A stretch of DNA of 23,500 nt. It comes from Pseudorhodobacter antarcticus (GTDB taxonomy: Bacteria > Pseudomonadota > Alphaproteobacteria > Rhodobacterales > Rhodobacteraceae). Below, piece after piece: positions 4,164-22,816 of this stretch. The notes beneath the pieces are model-generated. The model ran no database searches. It was not told the origin of the DNA and saw nothing but the letters and a program-made list of their open reading frames with translations. Location: positions 1 to 23,500 of the forward strand of contig CAMAQR010000054.1 of NCBI GenBank assembly GCA_945860375.1, given 5' to 3'. The translations under genes were made by a program, and so were the position numbers. Position 1 is the first letter of the stretch. Each line of letters starts with the position of its first letter.

Positions 4164-4245
4164 GAAATCGCCGCCCCCGGCCGCGAGACCACACCAGGAC
4201 CGGGGTCAGCGACTAACCTGTATGCCATACCGGCGCGCGGCGCGG
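4164..4245. other. 82-bp gap between the two amidohydrolase genes
   Basis: A short GC-rich spacer with no recognisable gene. The weak ribosome site for the TTG start at 4163 and the 82-bp gap leave the exact start of the CodA-like gene uncertain. Confidence 0.4.
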
Positions 4246-5061: not shown

Positions 5062-5062
5062 G

Positions 5063-7560: not shown

Positions 7561-8661
7561 TCAGATTTCGCGGCGGCGCACAGCGCCCGGGCGCTGAGAG
7601 GCACCACTGCGGGCGGCCTCCAACCCGGCAAAGCAGTTGGCAAGTGAAAGTAGATTGCCCGCCGCGCCGTTTTCCGGTTCGCGATCTTCTTCGATGGCCA
7701 AGAGCAGCTCACCCATTGCTCCGGCAAAACCGTCGTTGAACCATTTACCGGTCAAGCGGGGGCGGGCGACACCCGCTTCGGTGAAAAGCTCGACCGTTTG
7801 CTGGCCAAGGTCCGGACCGCGCGACACGAGGCTGCCCTTCGTGCCCGCGATATAGGTCGTGTCAGAGGCGCCAAAAGGTGTGGCGGCATCGAAGATCAGG
7901 CTGGCCTGCGCCGGGCCGAAATCCATCAGAACCGACGCCAGCATCGCCGGCCGGATTCCGGTTGACGGCGCACGCAAGGCCTGCGCCTGCACCCTGTCTG
8001 CCAGCCGGCCGGTGATCGAGGTAACAAAATCGAACCAGTGCACGCCGAAGTCGAAAAGGACGAGGTCGGCCACCTCCTCGAACGGCGTGCCCTTGACCCA
8101 CATGTGGCTCCAATGCAACGCGCAATGAACGCCCGTGACCTCGCCGATCAGCCCGGCCCGAACGGCGGCGCGCATCCAGGCCATGTGCGGTGACCAGCGG
8201 CCGTTCTGGTTGACGGCCAGCTTGACGCCCTGTGCTTGGGCCAGGGCAACCAGCCGCTCACCCTCATGCAGATCGGTGACGAAGGGCTTTTGGCTAAGGA
8301 CATGCTTGCCCGCCTTGAGCGCCGCCTCAATCAGCGGCCCGCGGTCCTCGGGGTGGGGGGTAAGGTCAAGGACGGAGATGTCATCCCGGGCCAGAAGGGC
8401 CGCGTAATCCGTCATCACCTCGGCTTCCGGGCAGAACTCGGCCGCGCGCGCCTCGGCCTTGGCGCGGTCGCGCGACAGGATGGCGGCCACCTCAATTCCA
8501 TGCGCCTGGTAGGCATCCAGATGGGCAAATGAGATGCCGCCCGCACCCACCAGCGCGATGCGGTGGCGGCCTTTCGGCCGGGACGGCAGATAGGGCAGGT
8601 CTGGCGCTGCCGTTTCGGCAGCGGTCTTCGAGACAAGGGCGTAATCGTCGCGGTCAGCCAT
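7561..8661 (-). CDS. Gfo/Idh/MocA-family oxidoreductase (copy A)
   Basis: A 366-residue NAD(P)-dependent dehydrogenase. After a 30-residue N-terminal extension comes the Rossmann loop IALVGAGGISFAH at about 35-47. SQKPF at 123-127 replaces the usual EKP motif, so the catalytic lysine is kept but the preceding acid is lost. The second domain contains LVLFDFGVHWFDF, equivalent to the family's GG-x-LLD-x-G-x-H substrate-site helix. Family members oxidise a hydroxyl of a sugar, sugar acid or cyclitol, often at C-1 or C-3. The ATG at 8659-8661 lies 3 bp past the stop of the preceding family member, so the two are probably cotranslated. The substrate is unknown. Confidence 0.9.
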   Translation of the reverse strand: MADRDDYALVSKTAAETAAPDLPYLPSRPKGRHRIALVGAGGISFAHLDAYQAHGIEVAAILSRDRAKAEARAAEFCPEAEVMTDYAALLARDDISVLDLTPHPEDRGPLIEAALKAGKHVLSQKPFVTDLHEGERLVALAQAQGVKLAVNQNGRWSPHMAWMRAAVRAGLIGEVTGVHCALHWSHMWVKGTPFEEVADLVLFDFGVHWFDFVTSITGRLADRVQAQALRAPSTGIRPAMLASVLMDFGPAQASLIFDAATPFGASDTTYIAGTKGSLVSRGPDLGQQTVELFTEAGVARPRLTGKWFNDGFAGAMGELLLAIEEDREPENGAAGNLLSLANCFAGLEAARSGASQRPGAVRRREI

Positions 8662-8664: not shown

Positions 8665-9741
8665 TTATCCCATCAGTGGCAAAGTGCGCCCGGCCCTGGC
8701 CGAGGCGAAAGCAGTATCGACGATCTGCTGGCCCACCCGGGCGATGGAAGGGTCAAGTGGCCCGCGCAACGGCCCGCCAGTGGCGAAGGCCTGAAGAACA
8801 TGTTCGATCGGGCCTCGGTCGGGGGCAATGACAGGGTCGTTGGCAATCTGGCATGGTTCGGGATGGTCCAGCGTCTGCAGCGTTACATGGGGTTCGAAAT
8901 CGTAAGACGAGATGGTGCCCCGTTCTCCGACAACCACAAAGCCGCATTTGGGTTGCGGCTGCAGAACCCAAGGGTCGCTGAAGGTGCCCCAGCGTGTCTC
9001 CATCTTGCCCATGCCGCGGGCATAGCGCAGCACGGTGATCGAATGCTCGTCCACTTCCAGCCCCGGGGCAGCCCAGGTGGTGGAGGTCACGTCGATCGGC
9101 GCCTCGCCATTCAGGAACCAAGTGCCAAGCGTCGCGCCATAACCAAGGTAATCCAGCAGCGCCCCGCCCCCTGACGCGGCCTTGTACCACCATGAACCGG
9201 GCTTCTGCCGCTCGACCTCCTCGGCCGTCACCTCGACCTTGTCGGCAAGATGGTAAAGCGGCCCGCGGTTGCCATCGTAGAAATGCACCTCTCGCACTGC
9301 GCCGATCATATCCGCATCAATCATGCGCTTGAGCGTGACATGACACGGATACCAGGCCAGCGGCCAGTTGACCGCCAGCCGCACCCCCGAGGCCGCGCAG
9401 GCCGAGATCATCCGGTCGGCATCGGCAAGGCTGGCCGCAAAGGGCTTTTCCACCACGATGTTGCACCCAAAGGGCGCCACCATCTCGACATAGGCGGCAT
9501 GGTCGGCGGTGGCCGGGCAAAGGATCACCAGATCGGGTTTTGTCGCCATGCAGGCAGCGACATCGCTGAAAACCCGGTCGGCGGGCAGGTTGAAATTGGC
9601 GATGGCCTGCTTCATGCGCGCGGGGTCGCGGTCGCAGATGCCGGTGATCTCGGCCTCGGGGTGGTCATGCACCTGGCGCAACAGATCGCCCATATGCATG
9701 TGATCAAAGTTGATGCCGACGACGCGGAACTTGGCGGGCAT
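8665..9741 (-). CDS. Gfo/Idh/MocA-family oxidoreductase (copy B), altered nucleotide-binding loop
   Basis: A 358-residue protein from the ATG at 9739-9741, chosen because AAGGAG lies upstream and the family begins here (MPAKFRVVGI). The fold is that of Gfo/Idh/MocA: ICDRDPARM at the end of the second strand, VVEKPFA around 97-102, and GGGALLDYLGYGATLG for the substrate-site helix. The usual glycine-rich loop GxGxxG is replaced by VGINFDHMHMGDL at 8-20, so dinucleotide binding may differ or be lost. Copy A follows after 3 bp, which suggests a paired function such as a heteromeric enzyme or consecutive steps. The mutarotase-like gene ends 10 bp upstream. The substrate is unknown. Confidence 0.88.
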   Translation of the reverse strand: MPAKFRVVGINFDHMHMGDLLRQVHDHPEAEITGICDRDPARMKQAIANFNLPADRVFSDVAACMATKPDLVILCPATADHAAYVEMVAPFGCNIVVEKPFAASLADADRMISACAASGVRLAVNWPLAWYPCHVTLKRMIDADMIGAVREVHFYDGNRGPLYHLADKVEVTAEEVERQKPGSWWYKAASGGGALLDYLGYGATLGTWFLNGEAPIDVTSTTWAAPGLEVDEHSITVLRYARGMGKMETRWGTFSDPWVLQPQPKCGFVVVGERGTISSYDFEPHVTLQTLDHPEPCQIANDPVIAPDRGPIEHVLQAFATGGPLRGPLDPSIARVGQQIVDTAFASARAGRTLPLMG

Positions 9742-9751
9742 AGCGGTCTCC

Positions 9752-10789
9752 TTAGGGAAAAAGGTGAGCCAGATCGAAAGCAACGGTGCGGACAAGGCCG
9801 GAGTCGGCAGTGACGGTCAGGCTGTCTCGCGTGGCGGAAACCCCGGTCACCCGCGCCTCGGAGGGCCAGGCGATGCAGCCGATGGCGTGGCGGACATCCA
9901 GCACGCCACCCAAGGCAAGCCCCCCCGGTTGCCCCAGCATATGGGGGGCAAAGCCCTCTTCCACCCCCAGGCAGGCGCGGTGGCGCCCCGACCAAGGGGC
10001 ATAGTCGCGCCCCCCGTCCGAGTGCCAGAGCATGGTCATCGGCAGTTGCAGCGGATTGCGCAGCGATAGATAAAGGTCGCCCTGACCCAGCCGCACCACC
10101 GCCGCCCAACCCAGAGGGCTACCTTCGGCTTCGGTGGCGATGACGAAATCCTCGTGCCCGGCGCAAAAGGGATAGCGCGTCAGGTCGAGCGTCCCGCCAT
10201 CCGCCGCCGGGAAATGGTGCGGGTCGGTGCTTTCAGCCGGATAGGCCAGGGCCGAGCGGCCACGGGCCGGGTCGGTCTCCAGCGGTGCAGCGATGGTGGC
10301 AAACCTGCGCTTGGGCGACAGGCTGATGAGCCCGCCCCGAGGCAGCGTGACCATGGCATGGTTCGCGACCGAGATCGTGCCGGTGCCGCCGTCAAAGCGG
10401 TGCGACTGGTAGACAAAGGGATGGCCGTCGCGCAGCGTGATGCGCTTTGTCACATCGGCACCTTGAACCATGTGCGGCATGTGCGCCTCCAGCCGGTCGG
10501 CCTGATGATTGCTCACCGCCCAGGCGGCGTTGGCGGGCCAGCCATGAAAGATCGGCGCATCGCCCCCGCCATCGCAAAACGGCGCGCAGAAGAAATCGCC
10601 CTGCATCTGCCCCAGATGCGGCGCGGTATCGGCGGGCATCGGCTCGCCGATCCAGGGAGCGCGGTGCATCGGCCGCAGCTGCCGTCCGCCATCGGTCACG
10701 GTCAAATCGCACAGAAAGCCGCAATCTGGCGCAAAGCGTAGGGAAATACCCCCGGTGCTCAGGGTGTGGCGGCTGCCGCTGGCTGTCAT
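9752..10789 (-). CDS. uncharacterised protein, probable galactose-mutarotase-like fold
   Basis: A 345-residue protein I cannot name with certainty. MQGDFFCAPFCDGGGDAPIF followed by HGWPANAAW (about residues 62-90) resembles the substrate-site block of aldose 1-epimerases (GxHGFARNxxW). Further on, LSLRNPLQLPMTMLWHSDGG and HRACLGVEEG have the look of the later beta strands of that fold. The length equals that of a typical epimerase. A role as a mutarotase, or as a binding or lyase enzyme on a sugar, is plausible. The standard catalytic Glu/His pair cannot be assigned by eye. Its ATG overlaps the stop of the PanB-like gene (ATGA), so it is translated as part of the same message. There is no signal peptide. 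Confidence 0.6.
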   Translation of the reverse strand: MTASGSRHTLSTGGISLRFAPDCGFLCDLTVTDGGRQLRPMHRAPWIGEPMPADTAPHLGQMQGDFFCAPFCDGGGDAPIFHGWPANAAWAVSNHQADRLEAHMPHMVQGADVTKRITLRDGHPFVYQSHRFDGGTGTISVANHAMVTLPRGGLISLSPKRRFATIAAPLETDPARGRSALAYPAESTDPHHFPAADGGTLDLTRYPFCAGHEDFVIATEAEGSPLGWAAVVRLGQGDLYLSLRNPLQLPMTMLWHSDGGRDYAPWSGRHRACLGVEEGFAPHMLGQPGGLALGGVLDVRHAIGCIAWPSEARVTGVSATRDSLTVTADSGLVRTVAFDLAHLFP

Positions 10790-11592
10790 TCTTCCACCGG
10801 CAACCGTGCCCTGAAGGCGGCAAGCTCGGCTTCCTCCATCTTCACCAAATACTGATCGCTTGGAAATGCACCGGTTTGAACATCGGCCACGAATTCGCGG
10901 AAGGCGGCCGTGCGTTCGGCCTGCAACCGGTCATAATCCGCAGCAAAGTTGCGATAGACCTTTGAATGCCGCGGCATATGGTCTTTGTGTTCACCAAGAA
11001 TGTCCATTGCGAAAAGGTATTGCGCATCGCATCCCGCGCCCGCGCCCATTGACCACAGCGACAACCGCTTCATCCGCCGGCTGATTTCGGCGGCGACCTG
11101 CGGCGGCACCACTTCTACTTCGACTGCAATCGCCCCGGCGCGCTCATAGGCCAGGCATTCGTGATACATGGCCAACGCAGTTTCTGCCGTCTTGCCGACA
11201 GCCTTGTAGCCCCCGGTCCAACCGACCCGCGCCGGCACCAGGCCGACATGGCCCACGACCGGGATCCATTCGCGGGCAAGAAATTCCACAGTGGTCATCG
11301 AGCCGGAACAATAGACCGCGTCAGCTCCCCGGTTCAGCATATCGCCGGACCAGCGCAGGTAATCTTCCTTGGTGCCCGCCTCCAGATGCGTGGCGCCGGT
11401 CATCGAAAACAGAGATGGCGCAACTTCGCGATAGCGCGGATGGGTGACGAGTTCGGGCGGCAGCGACACCACGTCGATCCCGGCAGCCTCGGCGGCAGCG
11501 GCCTCGTCCAGGCTGAAAATGCGCAGCATGGTCAGCTGGCGCTTGCCCTTCAGGGCGGCGATATCGGCAACGGTCAGGCGTTTGCGGGCCAA
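10786..11592 (-). CDS. divergent PanB (ketopantoate hydroxymethyltransferase)-like TIM-barrel protein
   Basis: A 268-residue relative of PanB, which normally transfers a hydroxymethyl group from methylene-tetrahydrofolate to 2-oxoisovalerate. Similarity is clear in VVGHVGLVPARVGWTGGYK (112-130), VEVVPPQVA (159-167, Glu160 aligning with the catalytic Glu of the LECVP motif) and SMGAGAGCDAQ (181-191). The segment holding the first Mg ligand of PanB (GDSLGM) is replaced by SLPPELVTH, and the second ligand block (ADLPF) is not seen, so the chemistry is probably altered. I prefer the TTG start at 11590-11592, which has GAGG six bases upstream and lies 1 bp past the Rieske stop. The frame also opens from a GTG at 11628 inside the Rieske gene. 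Its place right after the oxygenase-ferredoxin pair suggests handling of a one-carbon product or an aldol-type cleavage (inference). Confidence 0.8.
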   Translation of the reverse strand: MARKRLTVADIAALKGKRQLTMLRIFSLDEAAAAEAAGIDVVSLPPELVTHPRYREVAPSLFSMTGATHLEAGTKEDYLRWSGDMLNRGADAVYCSGSMTTVEFLAREWIPVVGHVGLVPARVGWTGGYKAVGKTAETALAMYHECLAYERAGAIAVEVEVVPPQVAAEISRRMKRLSLWSMGAGAGCDAQYLFAMDILGEHKDHMPRHSKVYRNFAADYDRLQAERTAAFREFVADVQTGAFPSDQYLVKMEEAELAAFRARLPVEE

Positions 11593-11593
11593 G

Positions 11594-11905
11594 TCACACC
11601 TCGATTTCGATATGGCCGTCCACCACACGGGCGGGCCAGGTCTTCAGGTTGATACAGACCGGCGCGCGCAGGGCCTGCCCGGTCTTGATGTTGAAGCGCC
11701 CGTTGTGCTTGGGGCACTCGATCTGGTCGCCCATCACCAGACCATCGGCCAGATGCACGTTTTCATGGGTGCACAGCCCGTCGGTGGCAAAGGCCGTGCC
11801 ATCTTCGGCCCGGTAGACCGCATAGGTGCGACCAGCATGGTCAAAGCGGATGACGTCTTCGGGGTCAATGTCATCGACCGGGCAAACTCGGGTCCATTCA
11901 GCCAT
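11594..11905 (-). CDS. mocE: MocE-like Rieske-type 2Fe-2S ferredoxin
   Basis: A 103-residue soluble Rieske ferredoxin. The cluster ligands are visible as CTHENVH (Cys45, His47) and CPKHNGRF (Cys64, His67), with the standard surrounding strands and DGLCTH. It has no membrane anchor or extra domain, which fits the short MocE/CarAc-type electron carriers. It overlaps the end of the di-iron oxygenase gene by 8 bp, with AAGGAG six bases before its ATG, so the two are almost certainly made together and it likely passes electrons to that enzyme. In Rhizobium leguminosarum rhizopine catabolism, mocD and mocE have this arrangement with a reductase gene, mocF. No mocF-like gene is present here, so the reductase must come from elsewhere. 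The symbol is given by family likeness and does not prove the same substrate. Confidence 0.9.
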   Translation of the reverse strand: MAEWTRVCPVDDIDPEDVIRFDHAGRTYAVYRAEDGTAFATDGLCTHENVHLADGLVMGDQIECPKHNGRFNIKTGQALRAPVCINLKTWPARVVDGHIEIEV

Positions 11906-12971
11906 TCGTGGCTCCTTCCTGATAGGGCCTCGCAGTGGGCGGCAAGGGTTTGCGGACGGCGTAGTTCAGGTCCCTTGCCTGACGCAGAACGGCAGGGATG
12001 GCCTCGCGGTAGGCATCCCAGATCGACGAATTCGGGACCGGCAAGTCGTGTTTCAGAACCTCATGCAGGCGCGGCAATGCGTGATACGGCACCATCGGGA
12101 ACATGTGATGTTCGACGTGGTAATTCATGTTCCAGTAAAGCCAGCGGCTGACCGGGTTCATGTAAACGGTCCGGCTGTTCAGCCGGTGGTCGGTCACGTT
12201 TTCGGCCAGGCCGCAATGCTGGATCAGCCCGGTCATGATCATGTGCCAGGCGCCATAGATGCGCGGCCCGCCGATCAGCATCAGCGGAATCCAGCTTTGC
12301 CAGGCGACGGCGGCGACAAGAGTCGCGGCATAGACCGCCATGTGGAGACGGGCCGCGAGGATCGCCTTGGCCCATTCCGTCTGCGGGATATAGTCCTTTT
12401 CGCCGTCCGTCAGCTGGCCCAAGGCGTTCTTGACCAGTCCAACCAGCGATTCCCACATGCCATAGACGCCGGCATAGGCCGCCAGCAGCTTGACCACATT
12501 CGGCGGGCGCATGCAGGCAATCTCGGGGTCGCGACCGACGATGATCGTATCGGTGTGGTGGCGCGCATGGCTCCAGCGCCAGGAAACGGGATTGCGCACC
12601 ACCTGGAACGAGGCGATGTGATAGACCAAGTCATTCATCCATTGGGTGCGGAAGGCCGTGCCGTGACCGCATTCGTGCCAGCGGCTGTCGCAGGCCGAAC
12701 CGTAAAGAACGCCATAGGCGAACCAGAAGGGCACACATGACCAGCTGCCCCAAAAAGCAACCCCGCCCCAGGCCGTCAGGCCAAGCAGCGCGAACCACAA
12801 GGCCGTGTCGCGGATCGCCGGGCCGTCGCGGCGCTGCATCAGCTCTTTCATCACCTTACGCGGAACGTCGGTGTGATACCAATCCGCATTGGCAAGCCCC
12901 TCGGCCTTTGCACGTTCAGTATCGACCCCGGTCAATGAGTAGTCTCGTGCGCTATCTGCGGTTACCGTCAT
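11898..12971 (-). CDS. mocD: fatty-acid-desaturase-type di-iron membrane oxygenase, MocD-like
   Basis: A 357-residue integral membrane enzyme with the histidine boxes of the desaturase/hydroxylase superfamily: HECGH at 99-103, HARHH at 135-139, His252 and His262, and HVEHH at 285-289. Hydrophobic stretches near 56-92, 160-182 and 210-250 supply the membrane spans. The boxes bind two irons that activate O2 for desaturation, hydroxylation or oxidative O-demethylation. The overlapping Rieske ferredoxin gene and the surrounding MocA-type and isomerase-like genes favour a MocD-like role, in which an O-methyl cyclitol loses its methyl group as formaldehyde. A desaturase acting on lipid, or a hydroxylase on another substrate, remains possible. 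The ATG at 12969-12971 follows GAAAGG. A terminator-like hairpin lies just upstream at 13003-13036. Confidence 0.88.
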   Translation of the reverse strand: MTVTADSARDYSLTGVDTERAKAEGLANADWYHTDVPRKVMKELMQRRDGPAIRDTALWFALLGLTAWGGVAFWGSWSCVPFWFAYGVLYGSACDSRWHECGHGTAFRTQWMNDLVYHIASFQVVRNPVSWRWSHARHHTDTIIVGRDPEIACMRPPNVVKLLAAYAGVYGMWESLVGLVKNALGQLTDGEKDYIPQTEWAKAILAARLHMAVYAATLVAAVAWQSWIPLMLIGGPRIYGAWHMIMTGLIQHCGLAENVTDHRLNSRTVYMNPVSRWLYWNMNYHVEHHMFPMVPYHALPRLHEVLKHDLPVPNSSIWDAYREAIPAVLRQARDLNYAVRKPLPPTARPYQEGATNG

Positions 12972-13056: not shown

Positions 13057-14139
13057 TCACCGGTTCACAGTCACCGACTGGCCGGTTTCTGCCACCTGAT
13101 AGATTGCGGCAATGGTGGCAAAGTTGAAGCGGATGCCGACCTCGTCCAGCGAGACCGAATCCTGTCCGGCAATCCGGCGCACGAGACCGAGCAACGGCGC
13201 GTGGTGGAAATGCGGGTGCTCGCCCATCGGCAGGGTTTCGACCTCGGCCTCCACCTTTCCGCCAAGATCGACATAGCGGGTAACCTTGGTCTGCTCGTCC
13301 CCATAAGGAGGCAGCCATTGCCAGGACAATCCGCCCTTGGTGCCCTCGACCGACAGCTCGTAGAGTGCGGGCCCGTTCACCCCATTGGCGCGCTCGTACA
13401 GCAGCGGCAGTCTCGCACCGTCCGGCAGGGTCAGTTCCAGCATCGCGGCCGCGTGGCTTTCCACCTCGACCGGGAATTCCGGCGGATCGTCGCGACCCTC
13501 GACACCGCCAATCCAGGCAGATTTGACCGTGACGGACACCGGGCGCAGCACGTCAAACAGCATGCCAAGATCATAGACCGCCCAATCCAGCAGCACCCCG
13601 CCCCCGGCCTTTTCACGGTCAAGGAACCAGCGACTGACAGGCTGATATTCGATCCCGGGCCGCATGCGCGGGGTGCGGTTGATCATGCGGGCAAGGTTCA
13701 GCCGGCCAAGTTCCTGCGCCGCGAGGATTTCGCGGACGCGAGCAGCAGCCGGCTGGCCATTGAACCGCACAGCGCAGTCTCCGACCATCCGGCCCGCCCG
13801 GGCTGCCGCGGCAAGGATCGCGTCCACCTCCGCCAGATCGCGGCCAAGCGGCTTTTCGCACAGGATGTGGAACCCGGCCGCCAGCGCCAGGCCTGCCATC
13901 GGCGCGTGCAGCCAGGGCGGCACCGCGACGACGACGATGTCCGCCTGGCCGGCCGGTGCCTCTGCCAGCATGGCCTCGGGAGCCTCGAAAAGCCGCGCCT
14001 CGGGGAAGGCCTCGGCAAACTTGGCGCGGGCAGCTTCTGACGGATCAGCGGAAAGGATCTGCGCGCCGGGGATCAGCCGGGCGGCGTTGGCGTGGTGGTG
14101 CGCGATGGCACCGGCGCCGATGATCAGGATGCGGGTCAT
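13057..14139 (-). CDS. Gfo/Idh/MocA-family oxidoreductase (copy C)
   Basis: A 360-residue NAD(P)-dependent dehydrogenase with a standard Rossmann loop (ILIIGAGAIAHHH at 4-16), VAVPPWLH at 71-78 and CEKPLGRDL at 94-102. The substrate-site helix is GGGVLLDWAVYDLGML. I chose the ATG at 14137-14139, because GAGGATAAG precedes it and the protein then begins right at the first beta strand. It follows the isomerase-like gene by 7 bp and is probably cotranslated with it. Pairs of a Gfo/Idh/MocA dehydrogenase and a xylose-isomerase-like protein occur in inositol, rhizopine (MocA/MocC), levoglucosan and C-glycoside pathways, where a hydroxyl is oxidised and the keto product is isomerised, eliminated or dehydrated. 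Which chemistry applies here is unknown. Confidence 0.9.
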   Translation of the reverse strand: MTRILIIGAGAIAHHHANAARLIPGAQILSADPSEAARAKFAEAFPEARLFEAPEAMLAEAPAGQADIVVVAVPPWLHAPMAGLALAAGFHILCEKPLGRDLAEVDAILAAAARAGRMVGDCAVRFNGQPAAARVREILAAQELGRLNLARMINRTPRMRPGIEYQPVSRWFLDREKAGGGVLLDWAVYDLGMLFDVLRPVSVTVKSAWIGGVEGRDDPPEFPVEVESHAAAMLELTLPDGARLPLLYERANGVNGPALYELSVEGTKGGLSWQWLPPYGDEQTKVTRYVDLGGKVEAEVETLPMGEHPHFHHAPLLGLVRRIAGQDSVSLDEVGIRFNFATIAAIYQVAETGQSVTVNR

Positions 14140-14146
14140 CTTATCC

Positions 14147-14968
14147 TCACGCTGCGATGGCGCCAAAGACGCGCTTGACATAGTCGGTCGATGCCGCGTG
14201 GGCGGCCACCGGGTTGAGGGTCATGGTGGTTGCCTCTTCATAGGCATGCTCGATCACCAAAAGCGGCTTTGCACCCTTGGCCTTCAGCATCTCGGCCATC
14301 TTGGCCATGTCGATATCGCCCTCTCCGACCGTCTCGTGCCAGATGCCGTTTTGGGACTGCCGGATGTGCAGTTCCGAAACCCTGTCGCCGTAAAGCCGGA
14401 TGATGTCCTCCAGCGCGACTTGAGAGTTCTCGGCGCCGCGCCAGATCCAGTGCAGATCAAGGCAAAGCCGCACCGACAGTGGGTCGGTTGCCACAAGCAT
14501 ATGGTGAAACTCACGCGCTGAGGCGCGCATTTCAGGGGAATGGGTGTGAAACAGAAGCTCCGCCCCCCGGGCGCGCAGTGAAGCCCCCAGCCGTTCAAGC
14601 TCCCCAGCCTGCACCCGCAATTCGGCGTCAGACTTCAAGGCGCCGCCCGGCAGCGGGTTTGGGTTCGAGATGAAGCGCGTCACGCCATGCGGCATCAGCG
14701 CGTCGCAGACCTTCAGCGCATGGTCATGGCTGAGCGCGGCCGCTTCGGCAGTGTGGAAAGTGCCAAAGACATAGGCCGAACGCATGGCCAGACCGGCGGC
14801 TTTGGCTTCGGCCGCCACGCCGGCCGGGTCCGAGGTTTCGCCGAAGGCGTCTTCCCAACCCGTCAGGCCGGCGGCACGCGCGTCGGCCATGGCGCGCGGC
14901 CGGTCGTAGGCGCGACCCTCGCGTGCGGCGATCTGGGTCCAACCGTAGCAATTGGTGGCGATGAACAT
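14147..14968 (-). CDS. sugar-phosphate isomerase/epimerase (xylose-isomerase-like TIM barrel)
   Basis: A 273-residue AP-endonuclease-2-type TIM barrel. Barrel-strand motifs with likely metal ligands are visible: ELLFHTH near 135-141, RLCLDLHW near 165-172, VSELHIRQ near 193-200, GEGDID near 212-217 and LLVIEHAYE near 234-242. The spaced Glu/Asp/His pattern is that of IolE, IolI, MocC and related isomerases, epimerases, dehydratases and C-deglycosidases. The substrate cannot be assigned. GGGAGA precedes the ATG at 14966-14968. The gene lies 79 bp after the large fusion gene and 7 bp before dehydrogenase C, which probably supplies or uses its keto-sugar substrate. MocC-like function is suggested by the nearby MocD/E-like pair (inference). 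Confidence 0.88.
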   Translation of the reverse strand: MFIATNCYGWTQIAAREGRAYDRPRAMADARAAGLTGWEDAFGETSDPAGVAAEAKAAGLAMRSAYVFGTFHTAEAAALSHDHALKVCDALMPHGVTRFISNPNPLPGGALKSDAELRVQAGELERLGASLRARGAELLFHTHSPEMRASAREFHHMLVATDPLSVRLCLDLHWIWRGAENSQVALEDIIRLYGDRVSELHIRQSQNGIWHETVGEGDIDMAKMAEMLKAKGAKPLLVIEHAYEEATTMTLNPVAAHAASTDYVKRVFGAIAA

Positions 14969-15047: not shown

Positions 15048-17069
15048 TCACTTTGAAGACACCGAGTCGCATTCCAGATTGAGCCAGGCGCATTCCTCGG
15101 GCGAAAGCTTCGCGTTCAGCGCGGCAAGAGTTGACGCCAGCTCACCTGGGCTTCGGGGCCCGATCAGTGCGAACGACGGGAAGGCCTGGGTCAGCACCCA
15201 GGCAGCGGCGATGGCATGCGGGGTCAGACCCTTCATCGCGGCCAGCTCTTCGGCTCGGCGACGCCGCTCGGCATTCCGGTCGCTGCCAAAGCAGTTTTCC
15301 GGCCCGATATCGGCAGGCAGGCGGTCGCGCAGCTCGGCTGGCAGGAAATAGCCCCGGGCCTGGCTGGACCAGGACAGATGCACGACCTGCCGGTCCGCCA
15401 TGAATTTCAGCGTTTCGGGCGTGTTAGACGTCAGGCAACCAAACCAGATCGGCTTTTCCATGACCGCCAGCGACAGGTTGTTGTTCAGGATTTGCGGCGC
15501 AAGCTTGCCCGCAGCGCGGGCCGCATCTTGCGCAGCACCCAGACGCTCGATGGTCCAGTTCGAGCCGCCCCAGATCCCAACCTTTCCGGCCTTGTTTAAC
15601 CGGGTGAAGAGATCGACAAACTCATCCACCGGCACATCCGGATTGTCCCGGTGCATGATGTAGATCGGCGCGTGGTCCAACCCCAGCCGGTCAAGCGAGA
15701 TGTTCAGTTGCGCTTCAATCGCGTCAGGCGTGCAATAGGGCGGCACACCGCCCTTGACGACCACGACCGTCTCCTTCTGGACGCCGCGTGACTTGAGCCA
15801 TTGGCCCAGCACCCCTTCATGCACCCCGCCGCCGTAGACAAAGGCGGTGTCAAAACTGTTGCCGCCAGCTTCCATCCACGCATCCCAGATCACTGCGCCT
15901 TCGGCCGGGGTGTTGCGGTTGTCACAGCCCATGACAAAGCTGGTCATCGGCAGATCGACACCTTCGACCTTGATCCTGGGAATGGCCGGCAGGCCCTTGG
16001 GCAGGCTGCGCGGCAGCTTGCGGATGACACCGGGCACCTCGGCAAAAGTCTTGTAGCCGGCCTCGGCCCGCCAGGCGTCCAGCGCCGCAGCCGTGGCGAT
16101 GCTGTCGGCATGACTGACGGCCGGGAAGGGCGGTTCTTTCAGGCCTGCGGCGATGGCACGGCTTGCCAGATCTGCCTCGAAGCCGAAAAGCTGCCAGGGA
16201 TGGCGGATCACCTCTTCGCTGGTCTTGTCACCCTTGGTGATCCGGATCGTAGTGTCCGACGGCCCAACATTGCGGCCCGGCATCCACGGATTTGTCAGCA
16301 GGATCGACCCATCCGACCCGTCGATGCGCATCTGGTTGTCCATCTGGCGGCTGGTGGCACAGGCCAGTTCCGCCGTGATGCCCGAAGCGTAGATCGCGCT
16401 GGCGTAGGACACTTCGTCGACGCCGGTCGCGCCGAGGATGCCGGTCGCCTTGATCTTGCTTGGCGTCTGGTAGGTGCCGCCCGCCGCCAGACCCGCGACC
16501 AGCCCGGCACCGGTCAGCGCATAGCCGCCCACATCGATGATGCCACCGCCGGCGAGTTCGTACTTGTACACCCGAGATGTCGGCCATTTCCGCGCGTCAA
16601 ATCCGAAGGTGGCGTGGATGTGATGCACCTTGCCGATCACGCCGTCCCGGATCAGTTCAGCCAGCCGCGCAATCTGCGGATGGCAACGGTACATATAGGC
16701 TTCCATGAAGAAGACGTTTTCCTGCCGTGCTGCCTCGACAAGCAGGGTTACCTCGGCCTCGTTCAGACCGGCAGGTTTTTCGACCAGAACCGCCTTTCCG
16801 GCTCGGATGGCCAGAAGAGCATGCTCGGCATGAAAGGGATGCGGGGTTGACACATAGATCGCGTCCACCTCCGGGTCGGCGACCAAAGCCTCATAGCTGG
16901 CATAGCGCTTGCCGGCGGCCACGCCGAACTTGTCACCAAAGGCGCGGCGCCGGTCGGCATCCCGGCTTGCGATGGCCGAAAGCCGGCCCGTGTCGGTTTG
17001 CGCAAGGCCGGTCGCGAAATTATCCGCAATGGTGCCGGGCCCGATGATGCCCCAATTCACAATCTTCAT
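15048..17069 (-). CDS. fusion protein: Gfo/Idh/MocA dehydrogenase + aldo/keto reductase
   Basis: A 673-residue two-domain enzyme. Residues 1-340 form a Gfo/Idh/MocA domain, with WGIIGPGTIADNF at 6-18, VEKPAGLNE at 96-104 and ELAGGGIIDVGGYAL at 171-185; this resembles the dimeric dihydrodiol dehydrogenase branch. Residues about 365-673 form an aldo/keto reductase with the complete catalytic tetrad: Asp407 and Tyr412 in FDTAFVYGGG, Lys439 in VVVVKGG and His473 in IYIMHRDNP. Both halves look active, so two NAD(P)-linked redox steps may run on one chain, for example oxidation at one carbon and reduction at another (inference). I chose the ATG at 17067-17069, which has AGGA eight bases further upstream; a start eight codons earlier is also open. 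It is the first enzyme gene after the AraC regulator, 49 bp downstream. Confidence 0.92.
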   Translation of the reverse strand: MKIVNWGIIGPGTIADNFATGLAQTDTGRLSAIASRDADRRRAFGDKFGVAAGKRYASYEALVADPEVDAIYVSTPHPFHAEHALLAIRAGKAVLVEKPAGLNEAEVTLLVEAARQENVFFMEAYMYRCHPQIARLAELIRDGVIGKVHHIHATFGFDARKWPTSRVYKYELAGGGIIDVGGYALTGAGLVAGLAAGGTYQTPSKIKATGILGATGVDEVSYASAIYASGITAELACATSRQMDNQMRIDGSDGSILLTNPWMPGRNVGPSDTTIRITKGDKTSEEVIRHPWQLFGFEADLASRAIAAGLKEPPFPAVSHADSIATAAALDAWRAEAGYKTFAEVPGVIRKLPRSLPKGLPAIPRIKVEGVDLPMTSFVMGCDNRNTPAEGAVIWDAWMEAGGNSFDTAFVYGGGVHEGVLGQWLKSRGVQKETVVVVKGGVPPYCTPDAIEAQLNISLDRLGLDHAPIYIMHRDNPDVPVDEFVDLFTRLNKAGKVGIWGGSNWTIERLGAAQDAARAAGKLAPQILNNNLSLAVMEKPIWFGCLTSNTPETLKFMADRQVVHLSWSSQARGYFLPAELRDRLPADIGPENCFGSDRNAERRRRAEELAAMKGLTPHAIAAAWVLTQAFPSFALIGPRSPGELASTLAALNAKLSPEECAWLNLECDSVSSK

Positions 17070-17118
17070 TCCTGTATTCCTGATCTTGCCCAAGGCCGAA
17101 AAGCCGACGGTTGGGCGG

Positions 17119-18000
17119 TTAGAGGGTCATGTCGGTGTCCCGCGGGTCTTGCGAGTGGCGACGACGATAGCTGCTGGGCGAAAGCCCAAACTGTTTGCGA
17201 AAACGTGTCGAAAAGTAGAACACATTGGCAAAGCCATGTGCCGCCGCGACCTGCCCGATCGTCCATCGTGGCGAGCGCAGCATCTGACTTGCCCGCTCCA
17301 ACTTGAGCTTTTCGACATAGGCTTGCGGACCGATCCGCATCTGCCGGGTGAACAACGCCGTGAACTGCGACCTCGACAGGCCGGAAGCGCGGCTGAGGTC
17401 ACCCACACTGACCGGCCGCGAGATCCACTCGCCGACAAGGTTCAATGCCCTGAGGATGCGCGGATCCATGTCTGGCCTGCCGAATTTCGGGTTGAAGTGA
17501 TCGGCAAGGATGAGGACCCGCTCCAGAGCATTCATCGCGCCATCCGAACGCAGGCGGCTTGCGCCATTGGCCACGTCATGCAAGCGGTTGAGTTCAACCT
17601 CGATAGGTTCGAAATCCTCGCCCGCCTTCAGGATCGAAACCCCGCGGTCCACTTCCGGCCAGCCCAGCCATTCGATCCAGCTCGGCCGGGGCCGGAAATG
17701 GATCCAAGTGTTGAACCAGGTATCGGTCGTGTCGGCAAATCCGTAGTCCTGCGGCGCGCCGGGCCGGAACAGTAACAGATCACCCCGGCCCAGCATCCGC
17801 GCATCGCCGTCCGAACAGGTCACACGCCCGCGCCCTGACGTGGTGGCAACCAAAAGCCAATCATCCGTTCCTTCCGGTCGAAGGGCGAAACTGCGCCAGT
17901 TGGTTTGGGGTTGGCGACCCGAAAGCACAGGCAACCAGTTCGGAACAATTGCCGCCGGGCGGGTGTTCGCAGGGGTCGATGAATCGGCACGCAACGTCAC
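17119..18000 (-). CDS. AraC/XylS-family transcriptional regulator
   Basis: A 293-residue regulator. The N-terminal half has a cupin-like sensing domain with RVTCSDGDARMLGRGDLLLFRPG at about 59-81. The C-terminal 100 residues hold the two helix-turn-helix motifs: SVGDLSRASGLSRSQFTALF at about 198-217, and IGQVAAAHGFANVFYFSTRF at about 248-267, followed by the usual F-x-x-P-x-x-YR end (FGLSPSSYRR). It starts with GTG at 17998-18000 after a strong GGGGGAGG site. It is divergent to the sugar ABC transporter and precedes the catabolic genes, the classic position for a substrate-responsive activator of both units. The ligand is unknown. A sugar or cyclitol-derived inducer is likely from context. 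Confidence 0.93.
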   Translation of the reverse strand: MTLRADSSTPANTRPAAIVPNWLPVLSGRQPQTNWRSFALRPEGTDDWLLVATTSGRGRVTCSDGDARMLGRGDLLLFRPGAPQDYGFADTTDTWFNTWIHFRPRPSWIEWLGWPEVDRGVSILKAGEDFEPIEVELNRLHDVANGASRLRSDGAMNALERVLILADHFNPKFGRPDMDPRILRALNLVGEWISRPVSVGDLSRASGLSRSQFTALFTRQMRIGPQAYVEKLKLERASQMLRSPRWTIGQVAAAHGFANVFYFSTRFRKQFGLSPSSYRRRHSQDPRDTDMTL

Positions 18001-18189: not shown

Positions 18190-18372
18190 TCAATTCGAAT
18201 TTCCCCTATATATATATGATATTGTCTTGTAGTGTGATCCCGACTGCGACGAATCATCCATCTTGTAGACACGAAGGTTCTCGCCCGAGTTCTGCTGATT
18301 TTGCAGAAGCGAAAGAAATTCTGCACCCGCATCAGGCATTTTACGCGCAAAAACCACGAATTTCGACGGCAT
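18190..18372 (-). CDS. possible small protein of 60 residues, unknown function
   Basis: An open frame that starts with ATG at 18370-18372, five bases after a strong GGAGG ribosome site, and ends with TGA at 18190-18192. The protein is hydrophilic, with a basic start (MPSKFVVFARKMPD) and a Ser/Gln/Asn-rich middle (LLQNQQNSGENLRVYKMDDS). I recognise no family, signal peptide or membrane segment. The good ribosome site and ordinary amino-acid mix argue for a gene; the short length and lack of relatives that I know argue against. It could also be the remnant of a longer gene. It points the same way as the AraC gene and lies between it and the transporter. Confidence 0.27.
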   Translation of the reverse strand: MPSKFVVFARKMPDAGAEFLSLLQNQQNSGENLRVYKMDDSSQSGSHYKTISYIYRGNSN

Positions 18373-18584
18373 GGCCGCCTCCGATCAAATAATTCTTTCG
18401 CTAAGCCTGGGGCATCGACCTTTGTTTTTGCTTGATCTCGGCCTTCGATTTTCGATTGGCGAGGTCGAGGGGAATTGGCCCGTCAACGGTTTAGCGGAGG
18501 CTGACAAGTCCTGTTGGGCTGAAGCATTCGTTTTTGTCCGGTTGTTTCGCCGTGCGAGCCTCCCGCAGCGCAAGGATCAGGTGG

Positions 18585-18620
18585 TTGACACACGCGGTCT
18601 TTGGTGGCCTGTTTTGCATT
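18585..18620 (+). promoter_or_regulatory. candidate promoter of the ABC transporter genes
   Basis: A consensus -35 box TTGACA lies at 18585-18590. The -10 region 17-21 bp further on is poor (around TGTTTTGCAT), as often seen for promoters that need an activator such as an AraC protein. The distance to the GTG at 18647 fits a leader of about 25-30 bases. Confidence 0.4.
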
Positions 18621-18646
18621 CTTCAAAATCTGAAGGGAGGAAAGAC

Positions 18647-19924
18647 GTGGCTTCGAAAACAAAAACGTTTACCCGTGCGCTCTTTGCCGCAACGGCGATT
18701 CACCTGTTTGCTGCCCCTGCGGTTCTTGCCGGTGAGGTGACTGTCTGGTTCTGGGACACGAAGTTCAACGGCGCGGCGATGCAAGAGGCGGCCAACCGCT
18801 ACAAAGCCGTTGCTCCGGACACCACGATCACACTTGTCGATCTTGCCAAGGCCGATCTTGAGACCAAGCTACAGACGCAGTTTGCCTCGGGTGTGACCGA
18901 TGGTCTGCCCGACATCGTCCTGATCGACGACCTGCGCGCCCAGCTTTACCTGCAATCCTTCACCGGCTCGTTCGAGCCGCTGAACGGTGCCATCGACCAC
19001 AGCCAGTTCGCCCCCTACAAGGTCGCCGTGGCAACCGTGGGCGAGAATATCTATTCCCTACCCTTCGACTCGGGCGTGGCGGGCTTTTACTATCGCTCGG
19101 ACATCCTGGCCGAGGCCGGTTACGCGGCGGCCGATATGACCGACATCACCTGGGACCGGTTCATCGAGATCGGGATCGACGTGAAGGCCAAGACGGGCCA
19201 CCCGCTGCTGTCCATCGACATGGCCAATGCGGCACCTTTCCGGATGATGCTGCAATCGGCCGGAAGCTGGTACTTCACGCCCGAGGGTGAACTGAATCTT
19301 GTGGGCAACGCGGCGTTCAAGAAGGCGATCGAGACCTATTCCAAGATGCTGCAGGCCGGTGACACACTGTGGAAGCCGGTTTCGGGCTGGGCGGAATATA
19401 CCGGGGCCTTCACAGGTGGCGAAGTGGCCGCCGTGCCGATGACCGGAGTCTGGATCACCGGAACCGTGAAATCGGCCGCCGACCAGGCCGGCAAATGGGC
19501 GGTTGCCCCGGTCCCGCGTCTTGACATCGAAGGGTCGGTCAACGCAACGAACCACGGCGGCTCCAGCTGGTATGTACTGTCGTCTTCCGCCGAAAAGACC
19601 GAAGCGATCGACTTCTTGGCCCAGGTCTGGGCAAAGGATGCGGACTTCTACCAGAAGATCTTGGTAGATCAGGGTGCCTTCGCCACCTTCCTTCCGGCGC
19701 GCGAAGGGGCTGCCTACTCCTCGGCCGATGATTTCTTCGGTGGCCAGACGGTCTGGAAGGATTTCTCGACCTGGGTGCAACAGATCCGGCCGGTAAACTA
19801 TGGGATATTTGCCGGCGAAGTTGATGCCGCCATTCTGGCCCAACTCCCCGCCATGGCGGCCGGCGAGAATGTTGACACCATCATCGAAAACATCGCCGCT
19901 CAAGCCAAATCGGCGATGCAGTAA
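18647..19924 (+). CDS. sugar ABC transporter substrate-binding protein (extracellular solute-binding family 1)
   Basis: A 425-residue periplasmic protein that captures a carbohydrate for the membrane complex. It begins with GTG at 18647-18649, after GGGAGG six bases upstream; the open frame continues further left but without protein likeness. Residues 1-28 form a Sec signal peptide with basic residues, a hydrophobic core (ALFAATAIHLFAAPAVLA) and a likely cut after VLA. The mature part starts EVTVWFWDTKFN and continues as typical family-1 binding proteins do: LPDIVLIDDL, YSLPFDSGVAGFYYRSDIL, then GGSSWYVLSSSAEKTEAIDFL near the C-terminus. There is no lipobox. The family usually binds oligosaccharides, polyols or sugar derivatives; the ligand here is unknown. 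The permease genes follow after a strong hairpin. Confidence 0.95.
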   Translation: MASKTKTFTRALFAATAIHLFAAPAVLAGEVTVWFWDTKFNGAAMQEAANRYKAVAPDTTITLVDLAKADLETKLQTQFASGVTDGLPDIVLIDDLRAQLYLQSFTGSFEPLNGAIDHSQFAPYKVAVATVGENIYSLPFDSGVAGFYYRSDILAEAGYAAADMTDITWDRFIEIGIDVKAKTGHPLLSIDMANAAPFRMMLQSAGSWYFTPEGELNLVGNAAFKKAIETYSKMLQAGDTLWKPVSGWAEYTGAFTGGEVAAVPMTGVWITGTVKSAADQAGKWAVAPVPRLDIEGSVNATNHGGSSWYVLSSSAEKTEAIDFLAQVWAKDADFYQKILVDQGAFATFLPAREGAAYSSADDFFGGQTVWKDFSTWVQQIRPVNYGIFAGEVDAAILAQLPAMAAGENVDTIIENIAAQAKSAMQ

Positions 19925-19936
19925 ACATCGAGTTCT

Positions 19937-19965
19937 GGTTCGGCGGGGCAACGCCTCGCCGAACC
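19937..19965 (+). repeat. strong intercistronic hairpin after the binding-protein gene
   Basis: GGTTCGGCG (19937-19945) pairs perfectly with CGCCGAACC (19957-19965). The intervening bases add a G-U pair and GGC/GCC around an AAC loop, for up to 13 pairs. It begins 12 bases after the stop codon and has no U-run behind it, so it is more likely an RNA-stabilising or partial-stop element than a full terminator. Such hairpins commonly keep binding-protein mRNA more abundant than permease mRNA, as between malE and malF. Confidence 0.65.
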
Positions 19966-19981
19966 CGCTTGCGTTATGAAA

Positions 19982-20005
19982 GCCAGACGGACCGTCTGGC
20001 CAGAC
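19982..20005. repeat. overlapping perfect palindromes upstream of the first permease gene
   Basis: GCCAGACGG (19982-19990) and CCGTCTGGC (19992-20000) are exact inverted repeats around one base. GTCTGGCCAGAC (19994-20005) is a second perfect palindrome that shares the middle arm. The 7-mer GCCAGAC or its complement thus occurs three times in 24 bases. It could be an operator or, in RNA, a second hairpin alternative to the one before it. No gene spans it if the permease starts at 20038. Confidence 0.5.
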
Positions 20006-20037
20006 CTCGGTCCGGGCGCACCATGGGGGAAACGGCG

Positions 20038-20904
20038 ATGCAATCTAGGCGGACCGACATCTGGGGCTGGTCTTTGATCATGCCAGCGCTCGTGCTGCTT
20101 GGTATTTTCATGATCTACCCGATCCTCTCCTCGCTCTGGCTCAGCCTGCACACCGGAAAAGGGATGAACCTGTCCTTCGGGGGGGCGGCGAACATTCTGC
20201 GACTGGCAGAAGACCCGGTCTTTCTGCGCGCACTGTTCAACACCCTGCTGTTTCTGGTCGTGCAGGTACCGATCATGATCGCGCTGGCACTGGTATTCGC
20301 CGTCGCGCTGGATGATCGCACGCTTTGGGGTCGCGCTTGGTTTCGTACCGCGATCTTTCTGCCCTGCGTAACGTCCCTTGTCACTTATTCGGTGCTGTTC
20401 AAGTCGATGTTTGCCCATGACGGTGTTGTGAACGACACCTTGATGTTTCTGAACTTCGTCGATCAACCCATCCCCTGGCTGACGGATCCGGGCTGGGCGC
20501 GGGTTGTCATCATCATCGCAATCACCTGGCGCTGGACCGGATACAACATGATCTTCTTTCTGGCCGCCCTGCAAAACATCGATCGCTCAATCTATGAACA
20601 GGCGCGAATCGATGGCGTCCCCGCCCATGCACGGCTTTTGCGGCTGACAGTTCCGATGCTGAAGCCGATCATCCTTTTCCTGTTCATCATGTCGACGATC
20701 GGGACCCTTCAGCTCTTCGACGAGGTCATGAACATCACCGAGGGCGGTCCGGCCGACGCCACGTTGACCCTTTCGCTATACATTTACAACCTGACCTTCA
20801 AGTTCATGCCAAGCTATGGCTATGCCTCGACGGTCTCATATGTGATTGTCGTCCTGGTTGCGATCCTTTCGTGGTTGCAGTTCCGTTTGGCGAGGGACAA
20901 ATAG
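20038..20904 (+). CDS. CUT1-type sugar ABC transporter permease (MalF/UgpA-like)
   Basis: A 288-residue inner-membrane protein with about six hydrophobic spans: near 12-35, 66-92, 101-122, 153-178, about 207-226 and about 260-282. The cytoplasmic loop EQARIDGVPAHARLLRLTVPML at about 187-208 is the EAA motif that contacts the ATPase, in the form typical of MalF/UgpA. I prefer the ATG at 20038-20040, preceded by GGGGGA at a good distance. An ATG at 20023 and a TTG at 19969 are in the same frame, but the latter would run through the palindromes. It is 1 bp from the second permease gene and is part of the plus-strand transporter operon that is divergent from the catabolic cluster. Confidence 0.93.
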   Translation: MQSRRTDIWGWSLIMPALVLLGIFMIYPILSSLWLSLHTGKGMNLSFGGAANILRLAEDPVFLRALFNTLLFLVVQVPIMIALALVFAVALDDRTLWGRAWFRTAIFLPCVTSLVTYSVLFKSMFAHDGVVNDTLMFLNFVDQPIPWLTDPGWARVVIIIAITWRWTGYNMIFFLAALQNIDRSIYEQARIDGVPAHARLLRLTVPMLKPIILFLFIMSTIGTLQLFDEVMNITEGGPADATLTLSLYIYNLTFKFMPSYGYASTVSYVIVVLVAILSWLQFRLARDK

Positions 20905-20905
20905 G

Positions 20906-21721
20906 ATGAGCCCCGTCTCCCGTATCCTGCGATCTGCAACCTATCTGGGTCTTGGGCTTGCGGCTCTGATCTCGGTCTTTCCCTTCTACTGGATGCTGGT
21001 CAGCATGACCAATTCCGCCGTCGAGGTCGCCAATGGCAAACTGACCTTCGGGGATCAGTTGATTGCGAACTTTCAGTCCCTGCTGACCGAAGTGGACATG
21101 GTTCGCGTCCTCTTCAACTCGACTGTTATCACGCTCTTCGGCACCATTCTGACTGTCGCGCTGTCGTCGGCTGCGGGCTATGGCTTTGAAATCTTTCGCT
21201 CTCGCTTCAAGGACCATCTTTTTTCCCTGCTTCTGCTGATGCTATCGATTCCCTTTGGCGCCATGATGATTCCGCTGTTCGTGATGTTCGCCAAGGCCGG
21301 CCTGCTGAACAGTTTTGCGGCAATTCTGCTGCCTGGCATCGCGTCGATCTTCATCGTATTCTACTTTCGCCAGGCGACCAAAGCCTTCCCGCACGAATTG
21401 CGCGATGCGGCACGAATCGACGGGCTGAACGAGCTGCAGATATTCCTGCGCATTTACTTGCCGGTAATGCGGTCCACCTATGCAGCGGCCACCGTCATCG
21501 TGTTCATGGCCAACTGGAACGCCTATTTGTGGCCCTTGATCGTGCTGCAGACCAACGACATGAAAACGATCACGCTGGTCGTGTCGTCGCTGGTATCGGC
21601 CTACAACCCCAATTACGGCGTTGTCAGCGTTGCCGCTGTCATTGCCACTCTTCCAACCTGTCTTGTGTTCTTCATTCTGCAACGCAGTTTTGTCGAAGGA
21701 CTGACGGGCGGGGTCAAATAG
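20906..21721 (+). CDS. CUT1-type sugar ABC transporter permease (MalG/UgpE-like)
   Basis: A 271-residue inner-membrane partner of the preceding permease. The first span, YLGLGLAALISVFPFYWMLV at about 13-32, has the PFYWM signature of the MalG/LacG/UgpE group. The EAA loop, ELRDAARIDGLNELQIFLRI at about 164-183, agrees well with the family consensus. The C-terminus IATLPTCLVFFILQRSFVEG followed by LTGGVK is the expected G-x-VKG-like end. The ATG at 20906-20908 lies 1 bp past the upstream stop with AGGGA before it; a longer frame starting at 20846 overlaps the first permease and is unlikely. The ATPase gene follows after 24 bp. Confidence 0.94.
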   Translation: MSPVSRILRSATYLGLGLAALISVFPFYWMLVSMTNSAVEVANGKLTFGDQLIANFQSLLTEVDMVRVLFNSTVITLFGTILTVALSSAAGYGFEIFRSRFKDHLFSLLLLMLSIPFGAMMIPLFVMFAKAGLLNSFAAILLPGIASIFIVFYFRQATKAFPHELRDAARIDGLNELQIFLRIYLPVMRSTYAAATVIVFMANWNAYLWPLIVLQTNDMKTITLVVSSLVSAYNPNYGVVSVAAVIATLPTCLVFFILQRSFVEGLTGGVK

Positions 21722-21745
21722 ACCCTGAATCGCAAAGGAGATGCC

Positions 21746-22816
21746 ATGACCAGCCTTACACTGCGAAACCTCAGCAAGTCCTTCGGCGCGGTTGACGTCG
21801 TCAAAGGCGTTGATCTTGATGTTGTCGAAGGCGAGTTCGTTGTTTTCGTTGGTCCGTCCGGCTGCGGAAAATCCACCCTTCTGCGCATGATCGCTGGGCT
21901 GGAAGGGATTTCCGGCGGCGAATTGCGCATCGGGGACACGCGTATGAACGAGGTGGATGCCAGCAAGCGCGGCATCGCAATGGTGTTTCAGTCCTATGCG
22001 CTCTACCCACACCTTTCAGTGCGAGAGAATATGGGTTTTGCACTGCGCTATGCGGGCATGCCTGCAGGACAGATCGCAAAGCGGGTCGCAGATGCCGCCG
22101 CGACGCTTGAGTTGACCAAGCTTATGGACCGCAAACCCAAAGAACTTTCGGGCGGCCAACGTCAGCGGGTCGCCATTGGCCGGGCAATCGTCAGGGAACC
22201 CGGTGTGTTTCTGTTCGACGAACCGCTGTCCAACCTCGACGCCGAATTGCGCGTGCATATGCGTGTCGAAATTGCCAAGCTTCACAAGGCTTTGGGTGCC
22301 ACGATCATCTATGTCACCCATGACCAGGTCGAAGCGATGACCCTGGCCGACAAGATCGTGGTGCTTCGCGATGGCCGCATCGAACAATCCGGCAGCCCAC
22401 TGAAGCTGTTTGACGACCCCGACAACCTTTTCGTTGCGGGCTTCATTGGCAGTCCGAAGATGAACTTCCTTGCCGGCCACCGTCAAGGCAACCGTCTGGT
22501 CATACCGGAATGTGGTGGTCACCAAATCGCCATGCCCGATGTCAAGAACCTTCCCGCCGAAGGCGAGCCGCTGACGATTGGCCTGCGCCCGCAAGTCATT
22601 GGCCGGGGCGGGGGCGAGATGCTGCCCTTGACCATCGAGATCGTCGAGCATCTTGGCACCGAAACCCTGGTTCACGCCCGCCCCGCAGAATCGGCGCGGA
22701 ATCTGATTGCTTCCATCGAAGGCGGAAGGGACTTGCGCACCGGTCAAACCTTCGAGGCCCATTTCGCGGCCGACAGCATCTTTCTTTTTGGCCGCGACGG
22801 ATTGCGCCTGCGCTGA
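21746..22816 (+). CDS. sugar ABC transporter ATP-binding protein (MalK/UgpC type)
   Basis: A 356-residue ATPase that powers the two permeases. All nucleotide-site motifs are intact: Walker [10 protein letters not shown] at 36-44, Q-loop Gln82 in FQSYALYPH, signature LSGGQ at 134-138, Walker B VFLFDEP at 154-160, D-loop SNLDAELR and H-loop His192 in [13 protein letters not shown]. Residues from about 240 form the regulatory OB-fold domain of the MalK/UgpC group ([33 protein letters not shown]). AAAGGAG lies seven bases before the ATG. This gene completes a full importer, so the operon can work alone. Downstream the sequence changes to decayed mobile DNA, and I saw no clear terminator. Confidence 0.96.

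Follow-up and report, generated by a model that had tools for sequence, protein, structure and literature searches.

A PanB-like gene conserved beside MocD/MocE-type oxygenase genes in Pseudorhodobacter antarcticus: a candidate partner in oxidative O-demethylation

The oxygenase, the ferredoxin and the PanB-like protein

A 23,500-nucleotide stretch of the Pseudorhodobacter antarcticus genome (assembly GCA_945860375.1, contig CAMAQR010000054.1, positions 1 to 23,500), which we call the window, carries three tightly packed genes on its minus strand. They encode a MocD-type di-iron oxygenase, a MocE-family Rieske ferredoxin and a distant relative of PanB. The oxygenase (11898..12971, 357 amino acids) belongs to the FA_desaturase family: it scores 126.7 bits against PF00487 (cut-off 29.7), and its three histidine boxes, HECGH, HARHH and HVEHH, can be read directly in the sequence. 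Its gene overlaps by 8 bp (11898-11905) that of the ferredoxin (11594..11905, 103 amino acids), a member of the MocE family by its sequence and by TIGR02377 (163.3 bits; cut-off 136.15). The gene for the PanB-like protein (10786..11592, 268 amino acids) most likely starts at a TTG codon at 11592, one base past the MocE stop; GAGGTG lies just 5' of this codon, and alignments of its relatives begin near the same point. Its stop at 10786 leaves a 4 bp overlap with the next gene (9752-10789). The original prediction had described exactly this arrangement (a di-iron enzyme with full histidine boxes, a small Rieske ferredoxin overlapping it by 8 bp and a PanB relative beginning 1 bp later), and it holds in every part.

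The PanB-like protein matches a single Pfam family, PF02548 (129.5 bits; cut-off 28.7), and its structure model folds as PanB, in a comparison limited to Foldseek's own candidates. The model thus leaves intact the earlier placement of this protein among PanB relatives. Against the panB equivalog TIGR00222 it reaches 97.8 of the required 207.55 bits, short of PanB proper. An identity as Fae was rejected, as PF08714 has no match in this genome and the protein matches PF02548 alone.

For comparison we gathered 197 PanB-like genes: the best 80 of at least 503 loci from a species-genome scan, 112 hand-picked from survey genomes with divergent members favoured, three from plasmids and two from the window's own genome. 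This is a non-random sample, with neighbourhoods from relatives and from class and family surveys; it forms 99 clusters at 80% identity, and nine genes repeat a protein already counted, mostly through one contig present in two collections. In PanB, we take D45, D84 and E114 to be the magnesium ligands, and D84, E114 and K112 to hold the metal and the keto acid. At D45, D84, E114 and K112 the window protein has P, G, S and Y, respectively, and D84, E114 and K112 are lost in nearly all of the 197 proteins (D84 is kept in two, K112 in two). H136 and E181, on the other hand, are kept in 196, a new glutamate stands at position 179 in 196 as well, and a histidine is found at window residue 209. In window numbering, E158, E160, H115 and H209 are nearly invariant across the family, and Y94, H115 and E158 sit on barrel strands of the structure model. 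Because the PanB metal ligands and K112 are gone, the protein appears, on its residues, to do no working PanB chemistry. In a quick tree, with long branches, coarser partner labels and 36 of its 101 inner branches left open, the family stands apart from five canonical PanB proteins, with a Shimodaira-Hasegawa-like approximate likelihood ratio test (SH-aLRT) value of 99. Two loci (L162 and L181) have a VanA-type oxygenase gene overlapping a PanB-like gene that retains part of the PanB metal loop; these two proteins are possibly an early form.

A conserved pairing with changing oxygenases

The association between oxygenase and PanB-like genes exceeds chance. An oxygenase gene lies in the same-strand run of 143 of the 197 PanB-like genes, MocE without an oxygenase in 12 and neither in 42. 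Leaving out repeated proteins gives an oxygenase for 134 of 188 (12 with MocE only, 42 with neither), and the 99 clusters divide into 64, 8 and 27. The share with an oxygenase follows identity to the window protein (repeats included): 80/96 at 55% or more, 43/66 at 40-55% and 20/35 below that. Among the best 80 of at least 503 loci, 70 have a MocD-type desaturase, and 61 have MocE, no more than 4 kb away on that strand. The gene directly upstream of the PanB-like gene encodes MocE in 43 of the 80, a desaturase in 24 (a partial one in one locus) and, in six, a ferredoxin reductase, with cluster 27 identified separately. Ferredoxin reductases occur within 8 kb of the PanB-like gene in 17 of the 197 loci. 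These counts depend on survey gene calls from a small codon-score caller, tried on the window alone and with some starts off there, and on neighbour labels from BLAST with chosen references, one extra desaturase reference being wrongly cut (23 stops).

The same pairing recurs within the window's own genome (80% complete), which encodes one true PanB (C77, 352 bits) and three PanB-like proteins. The other two PanB-like genes (C25 and C175) each follow a desaturase gene, at C175 with MocE between. On S. meliloti pSymB and R. etli plasmids the order is LacI, oxygenase, MocE, ferredoxin reductase, PanB-like. The S. meliloti 1021 genes SM_b20817-20820 are named LacI, mocD, mocE and mocF in a network paper, in whose available text no panB appears. 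In L120 and L121, a LacI-family regulator adjoins the rhizobial cassette. In excerpts of a Mesorhizobium loti paper, regulators beside mocDEF clusters are linked to FixV, an activator of nifA2. Tandem pairs of PanB-like genes occur in L139 (8232-9922) and L229.

The partner is not always MocD-like. Oxygenases in the 143 runs belong to FA_desaturase, FA_hydroxylase, Ring_hydroxyl_A and VanA_C: 113 runs have a desaturase, 23 an FA_hydroxylase, four both FA_hydroxylase and Ring_hydroxyl_A, two a VanA-type enzyme and one a desaturase with an FA_hydroxylase (VanA and Ring_hydroxyl_A matches below 35% identity were dropped). In L134 (4938-6643) the gene overlapping the PanB-like gene encodes a PhyH-type dioxygenase. 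Mapped on the quick tree, the partner label needs 30 changes. That is, the PanB-like protein stays constant while the oxygenase family changes, which points to a shared product more than a shared substrate. The original prediction had coupled MocDE to the PanB-like protein. The coupling itself is strongly conserved; the partner family proved broader than MocDE, and MocD-type genes often occur without a PanB-like gene.

Folate, inositol and sugar genes around the cassette

Folate genes lie near the PanB-like gene in nine of the 197 loci (6 of 99 clusters). PurU accounts for seven of them (four Mesorhizobium loci, L132, L148 and L191); it follows the PanB-like gene directly or within 174 bp in the four Mesorhizobium loci and is 7.7 kb away in L191. 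The three PurU proteins that were tested score 325.6, 328.9 and 337.7 (cut-off 285.95). Locus L148 has the order MocE, TIM barrel, ferredoxin reductase, PanB-like, FolD, PurU, Gfo, its FolD scoring 458.8 (cut-off 396). DmdA-type GCV_T proteins in L181 (374.7) and L232 (344.3) stay below the family cut-off of 410. Counted in the same run, PurU occurs seven times and GlyA, MetF, PanC and FrmB not at all, and no GlyA, MetF or FrmB relative lies within 8 kb in any of the 197 loci. By rough arithmetic (16 kb is 0.4% of 4 Mb), for each copy of PurU that a genome carries, chance would place about one among 197. Since four of the seven PurU loci are close relatives, however, this excess rests on few independent cases. 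Weak FrmA-like matches (24-38% identity, five loci) and a GcvT-bearing flavin adenine dinucleotide (FAD) oxidoreductase on the opposite strand in L221 were not counted as one-carbon genes. Inositol genes recur as well: L132 is an inositol operon (MocE, PanB-like, PurU, IolC, IolD, IolB) whose IolC and IolD both exceed their cut-offs, and, counting matches of at least 45% identity, the 197 runs include IolB three times, IolC four times and IolD four times.

In the window, the trio sits among sugar-type genes, likewise on the minus strand. Directly after the PanB-like gene comes a 345-amino-acid protein (9752..10789) to which Pfam and NCBIfam scans assign no family; by BLAST, its relatives adjoin or lie near PanB-like genes elsewhere (L042, L044, L057, L237). 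Two Gfo/Idh/MocA oxidoreductases follow (8665..9795, PF01408 65.8 bits; 7561..8661, 70.1 bits), and a third lies upstream of the oxygenase (13057..14181, 67.9 bits). Beyond it are a xylose isomerase-like TIM barrel (14147..14968, PF01261 45.0 bits), weakly IolE-like (36.3 bits to TIGR04379, far under the cut-off of 290), a 681-amino-acid protein fusing Gfo/Idh/MocA and aldo/keto reductase domains (15048..17093, PF01408 and PF00248) and an AraC-type regulator (17119..18000, PF12833 and PF02311). A sugar-type ATP-binding cassette transporter is encoded divergently, on the plus strand (18371..22816): a binding protein (PF01547), two permeases (PF00528 twice) and an ATPase (PF00005). The trio's strand also encodes an FAD-binding oxidase-like protein and an E1-like thiamine-diphosphate protein (5063-7444, 793 amino acids), which falls between the transketolase and aceE families, far under the equivalog cut-offs of the matched models. 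At 2940-5112, still on this strand, a creatininase-family protein, weakly like IolN and MftE, adjoins a cytosine-deaminase-like amidohydrolase, and a RidA-type protein lies at 317-769; together these hint at an intermediate that may carry nitrogen or be a lactone. Altogether, the gene set would suit the breakdown of a sugar, glycoside or cyclitol taken up from outside. No ferredoxin reductase domain was found among the 20 scanned window proteins, and two reductases gave no tblastn match at E 1e-3. No rhizopine-specific gene was identified in the window, whose genes were not compared with the moc sequences themselves.

A proposed role in O-demethylation and its rivals

Rieske ferredoxins supply electrons to oxygenases, and a methyl ether, once hydroxylated, becomes a hemiacetal from which formaldehyde is released. 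We propose that the trio is an oxidative O-demethylation cassette and that its operon serves the use of a methylated sugar or cyclitol taken up by the cell. MocE would hand electrons to the MocD-type oxygenase, drawing them from a ferredoxin reductase whose gene lies outside the window; the oxygenase would hydroxylate the methyl ether, and the hemiacetal would fall apart into formaldehyde and the free hydroxyl. With the barrel of PanB but not its keto-acid/magnesium site, the PanB-like protein would handle the released one-carbon unit. Loss of that site makes hydroxymethyl transfer to a keto acid unlikely and leaves two options: most likely the protein, as a counterpart of Fae for folate, would speed the condensation of formaldehyde with tetrahydrofolate, or else it would take over the hemiacetal's carbon. 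The folate pool would then be drained by FolD and PurU or by biosynthesis. That unrelated oxygenases share this partner, and that folate enzymes and inositol operons keep appearing next to some of its copies, makes handling of the released carbon the simplest reading, and we give roughly even credence to a demethylation cassette in which the PanB-like protein handles formaldehyde. More tentatively, and with the doubt outweighing the belief, the whole family could be a dedicated tetrahydrofolate-dependent formaldehyde-capturing enzyme that stands beside several unrelated demethylating oxygenases and feeds the O-methyl carbon of methylated sugars and inositols into the folate pool. The original prediction had already suggested a link to one-carbon metabolism, in which the PanB-like protein could capture or move a one-carbon unit. 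Circumstantial signs of the link exist (two VanA-type oxygenases, PurU, FolD, DmdA-type relatives and inositol operons among the partners); with the ligands and K112 lost, working PanB chemistry has no part in our reading.

He et al. (2020) found the uncatalysed condensation of formaldehyde with tetrahydrofolate too slow and left open an activating enzyme of a folate type; in a 2022 review this step is described as spontaneous. Rhizobium mesoamericanum induces homologues of mocDEF, together with iol genes, in response to a root exudate in which pinitol, an O-methyl inositol, is the most concentrated component, and the authors read this as rhizopine catabolism. Because of this induction by a pinitol-rich exudate, pinitol and other O-methyl inositols are our leading substrate candidates for the rhizobial cassettes.

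Several observations weigh against this proposal. Deletion of panB and ltaE left formaldehyde-dependent growth of E. coli unchanged (He et al. 2020, in the parts available), so canonical PanB gave no sign of such activity there. No folate-binding residue is known in the PanB-like protein. Folate genes accompany a minority of loci, four of the nine being close Mesorhizobium relatives; the own genome, at its 80% completeness, has a FolD over its cut-off and no PurU over its cut-off, and the window has no relative of PurU, FolD, ferredoxin reductase, IolB, IolC or IolD. Moreover, the pairing has exceptions on both sides. Neither partner is in the run of 42 PanB-like genes, and in six Actinomycetota loci the PanB-like gene, at 67-69% identity, is surrounded by unrelated genes (AMP-binding, peptidase and others); a seventh, L053, has a desaturase, Gfo/Idh/MocA, a TIM barrel and a sugar kinase upstream. 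In a class survey, PanB-like genes were found at E<=1e-32 in 21 of 385 genomes (57 of 248 in a further survey; a separate one matched 66 of 101 at E<=0.001, true PanB included). Of the 26 genes in the class survey, the own three among them, 11 have a MocD-type desaturase match within 3 kb, and several others lie at contig ends or among unrelated genes. Conversely, of 13 desaturases with at least 50% identity, nine lack a PanB-like match within 3 kb (some of these lie on short contigs), which suggests that the oxygenase can do without the PanB-like protein. No PanB relative is encoded in a stretch of an R. leguminosarum plasmid with desaturase, sterol desaturase, iolE and iolD, in stretches of Fuscovulum and Paracoccus yeei plasmids with MocE and a sterol-desaturase-type oxygenase, or beside a Paenibacillus desaturase. 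Finally, the described rhizopine units (mocDEF, mocR, mocBA, mocC) name no PanB in the source excerpts.

The strongest rival has the PanB-like protein act on the carbon skeleton instead of the methyl carbon: it could be, for example, a lyase, isomerase or aldolase whose substrate is the oxidised sugar or cyclitol. We consider this rather unlikely, as members of this one family accompany several oxygenases unrelated to one another (VanA-type included) as well as folate genes, and the PanB metal site, by the ligand roles assumed above, is lost. Close gene adjacency and that same loss would suit a non-enzymatic, chaperone-like helper of a membrane oxygenase, or a formaldehyde sponge. This is improbable given the near-invariant E158, E160, H115 and H209, with Y94, H115 and E158 placed on the model's barrel strands as in an active site; some members, moreover, stand beside Rieske oxygenases (VanA, Ring_hydroxyl_A), which are soluble as a class. 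A further rival is an aldol reaction between formaldehyde and a 2-keto acid, resembling the side reaction that PanB carries out without folate. It has a precedent in PanB variants described, in the source excerpts, as condensing formaldehyde with 3-methyl-2-oxobutanoate, but is very doubtful here, D84, E114 and K112, the presumed holders of metal and keto acid, being lost in nearly all members. An ordinary second PanB copy for pantothenate, as PF02548 and the source annotations of named relatives would have it, was rejected with near certainty on the missed TIGR00222 cut-off, the lost ligands, the true PanB at C77, the separation in the tree and the lack of any PanC relative within 8 kb in the 197 loci.

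Relation to known systems

Searching open-licence PubMed Central papers, we found no description of the trio's function; statements from the literature draw on excerpts of PMC11387232, PMC10107442, PMC10949508, PMC5789663, PMC3538637, PMC7073904 and PMC8879981. A widespread PanB derivative beside demethylating oxygenases would make the enzyme question left by He et al. directly testable. If the proposal is true, many annotations would be affected, since relatives named by their sources are now called 3-methyl-2-oxobutanoate hydroxymethyltransferase.

The closest described system is the MocDEF set for rhizopine catabolism in Sinorhizobium meliloti L5-30 and Rhizobium leguminosarum, presented in the excerpts as a ferredoxin oxygenase complex that feeds the inositol pathway. 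Like the window, it combines a di-iron oxygenase with a MocE ferredoxin; unlike it, the window lacks a ferredoxin reductase relative and adds a PanB-like gene. The original prediction knew of no described case of the trio, yet the arrangement is already annotated on R. etli CIAT 652 pA (mocD, mocEa, mocFa and a probable ketopantoate hydroxymethyltransferase), in an annotation that states no function. The PanB-like gene comes last there, as in the window and in the like cassettes of R. etli CFN 42 and S. meliloti. In contrast to the window, the rhizobial cassettes have an adjoining LacI regulator and a reductase gene, with no sugar operon around them. Beyond rhizopine, their substrates may include O-methyl inositols made by plants, pinitol among them.

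From canonical PanB, the window protein differs in the absence of D84, E114 and K112, in the new glutamate at 179 and histidine at residue 209, and in its gene context. With the formaldehyde-activating enzymes Fae and Gfa, as the excerpts describe them, it would share formaldehyde capture for a one-carbon carrier. It belongs to a different family from Fae (no PF08714), and its proposed carrier is tetrahydrofolate.

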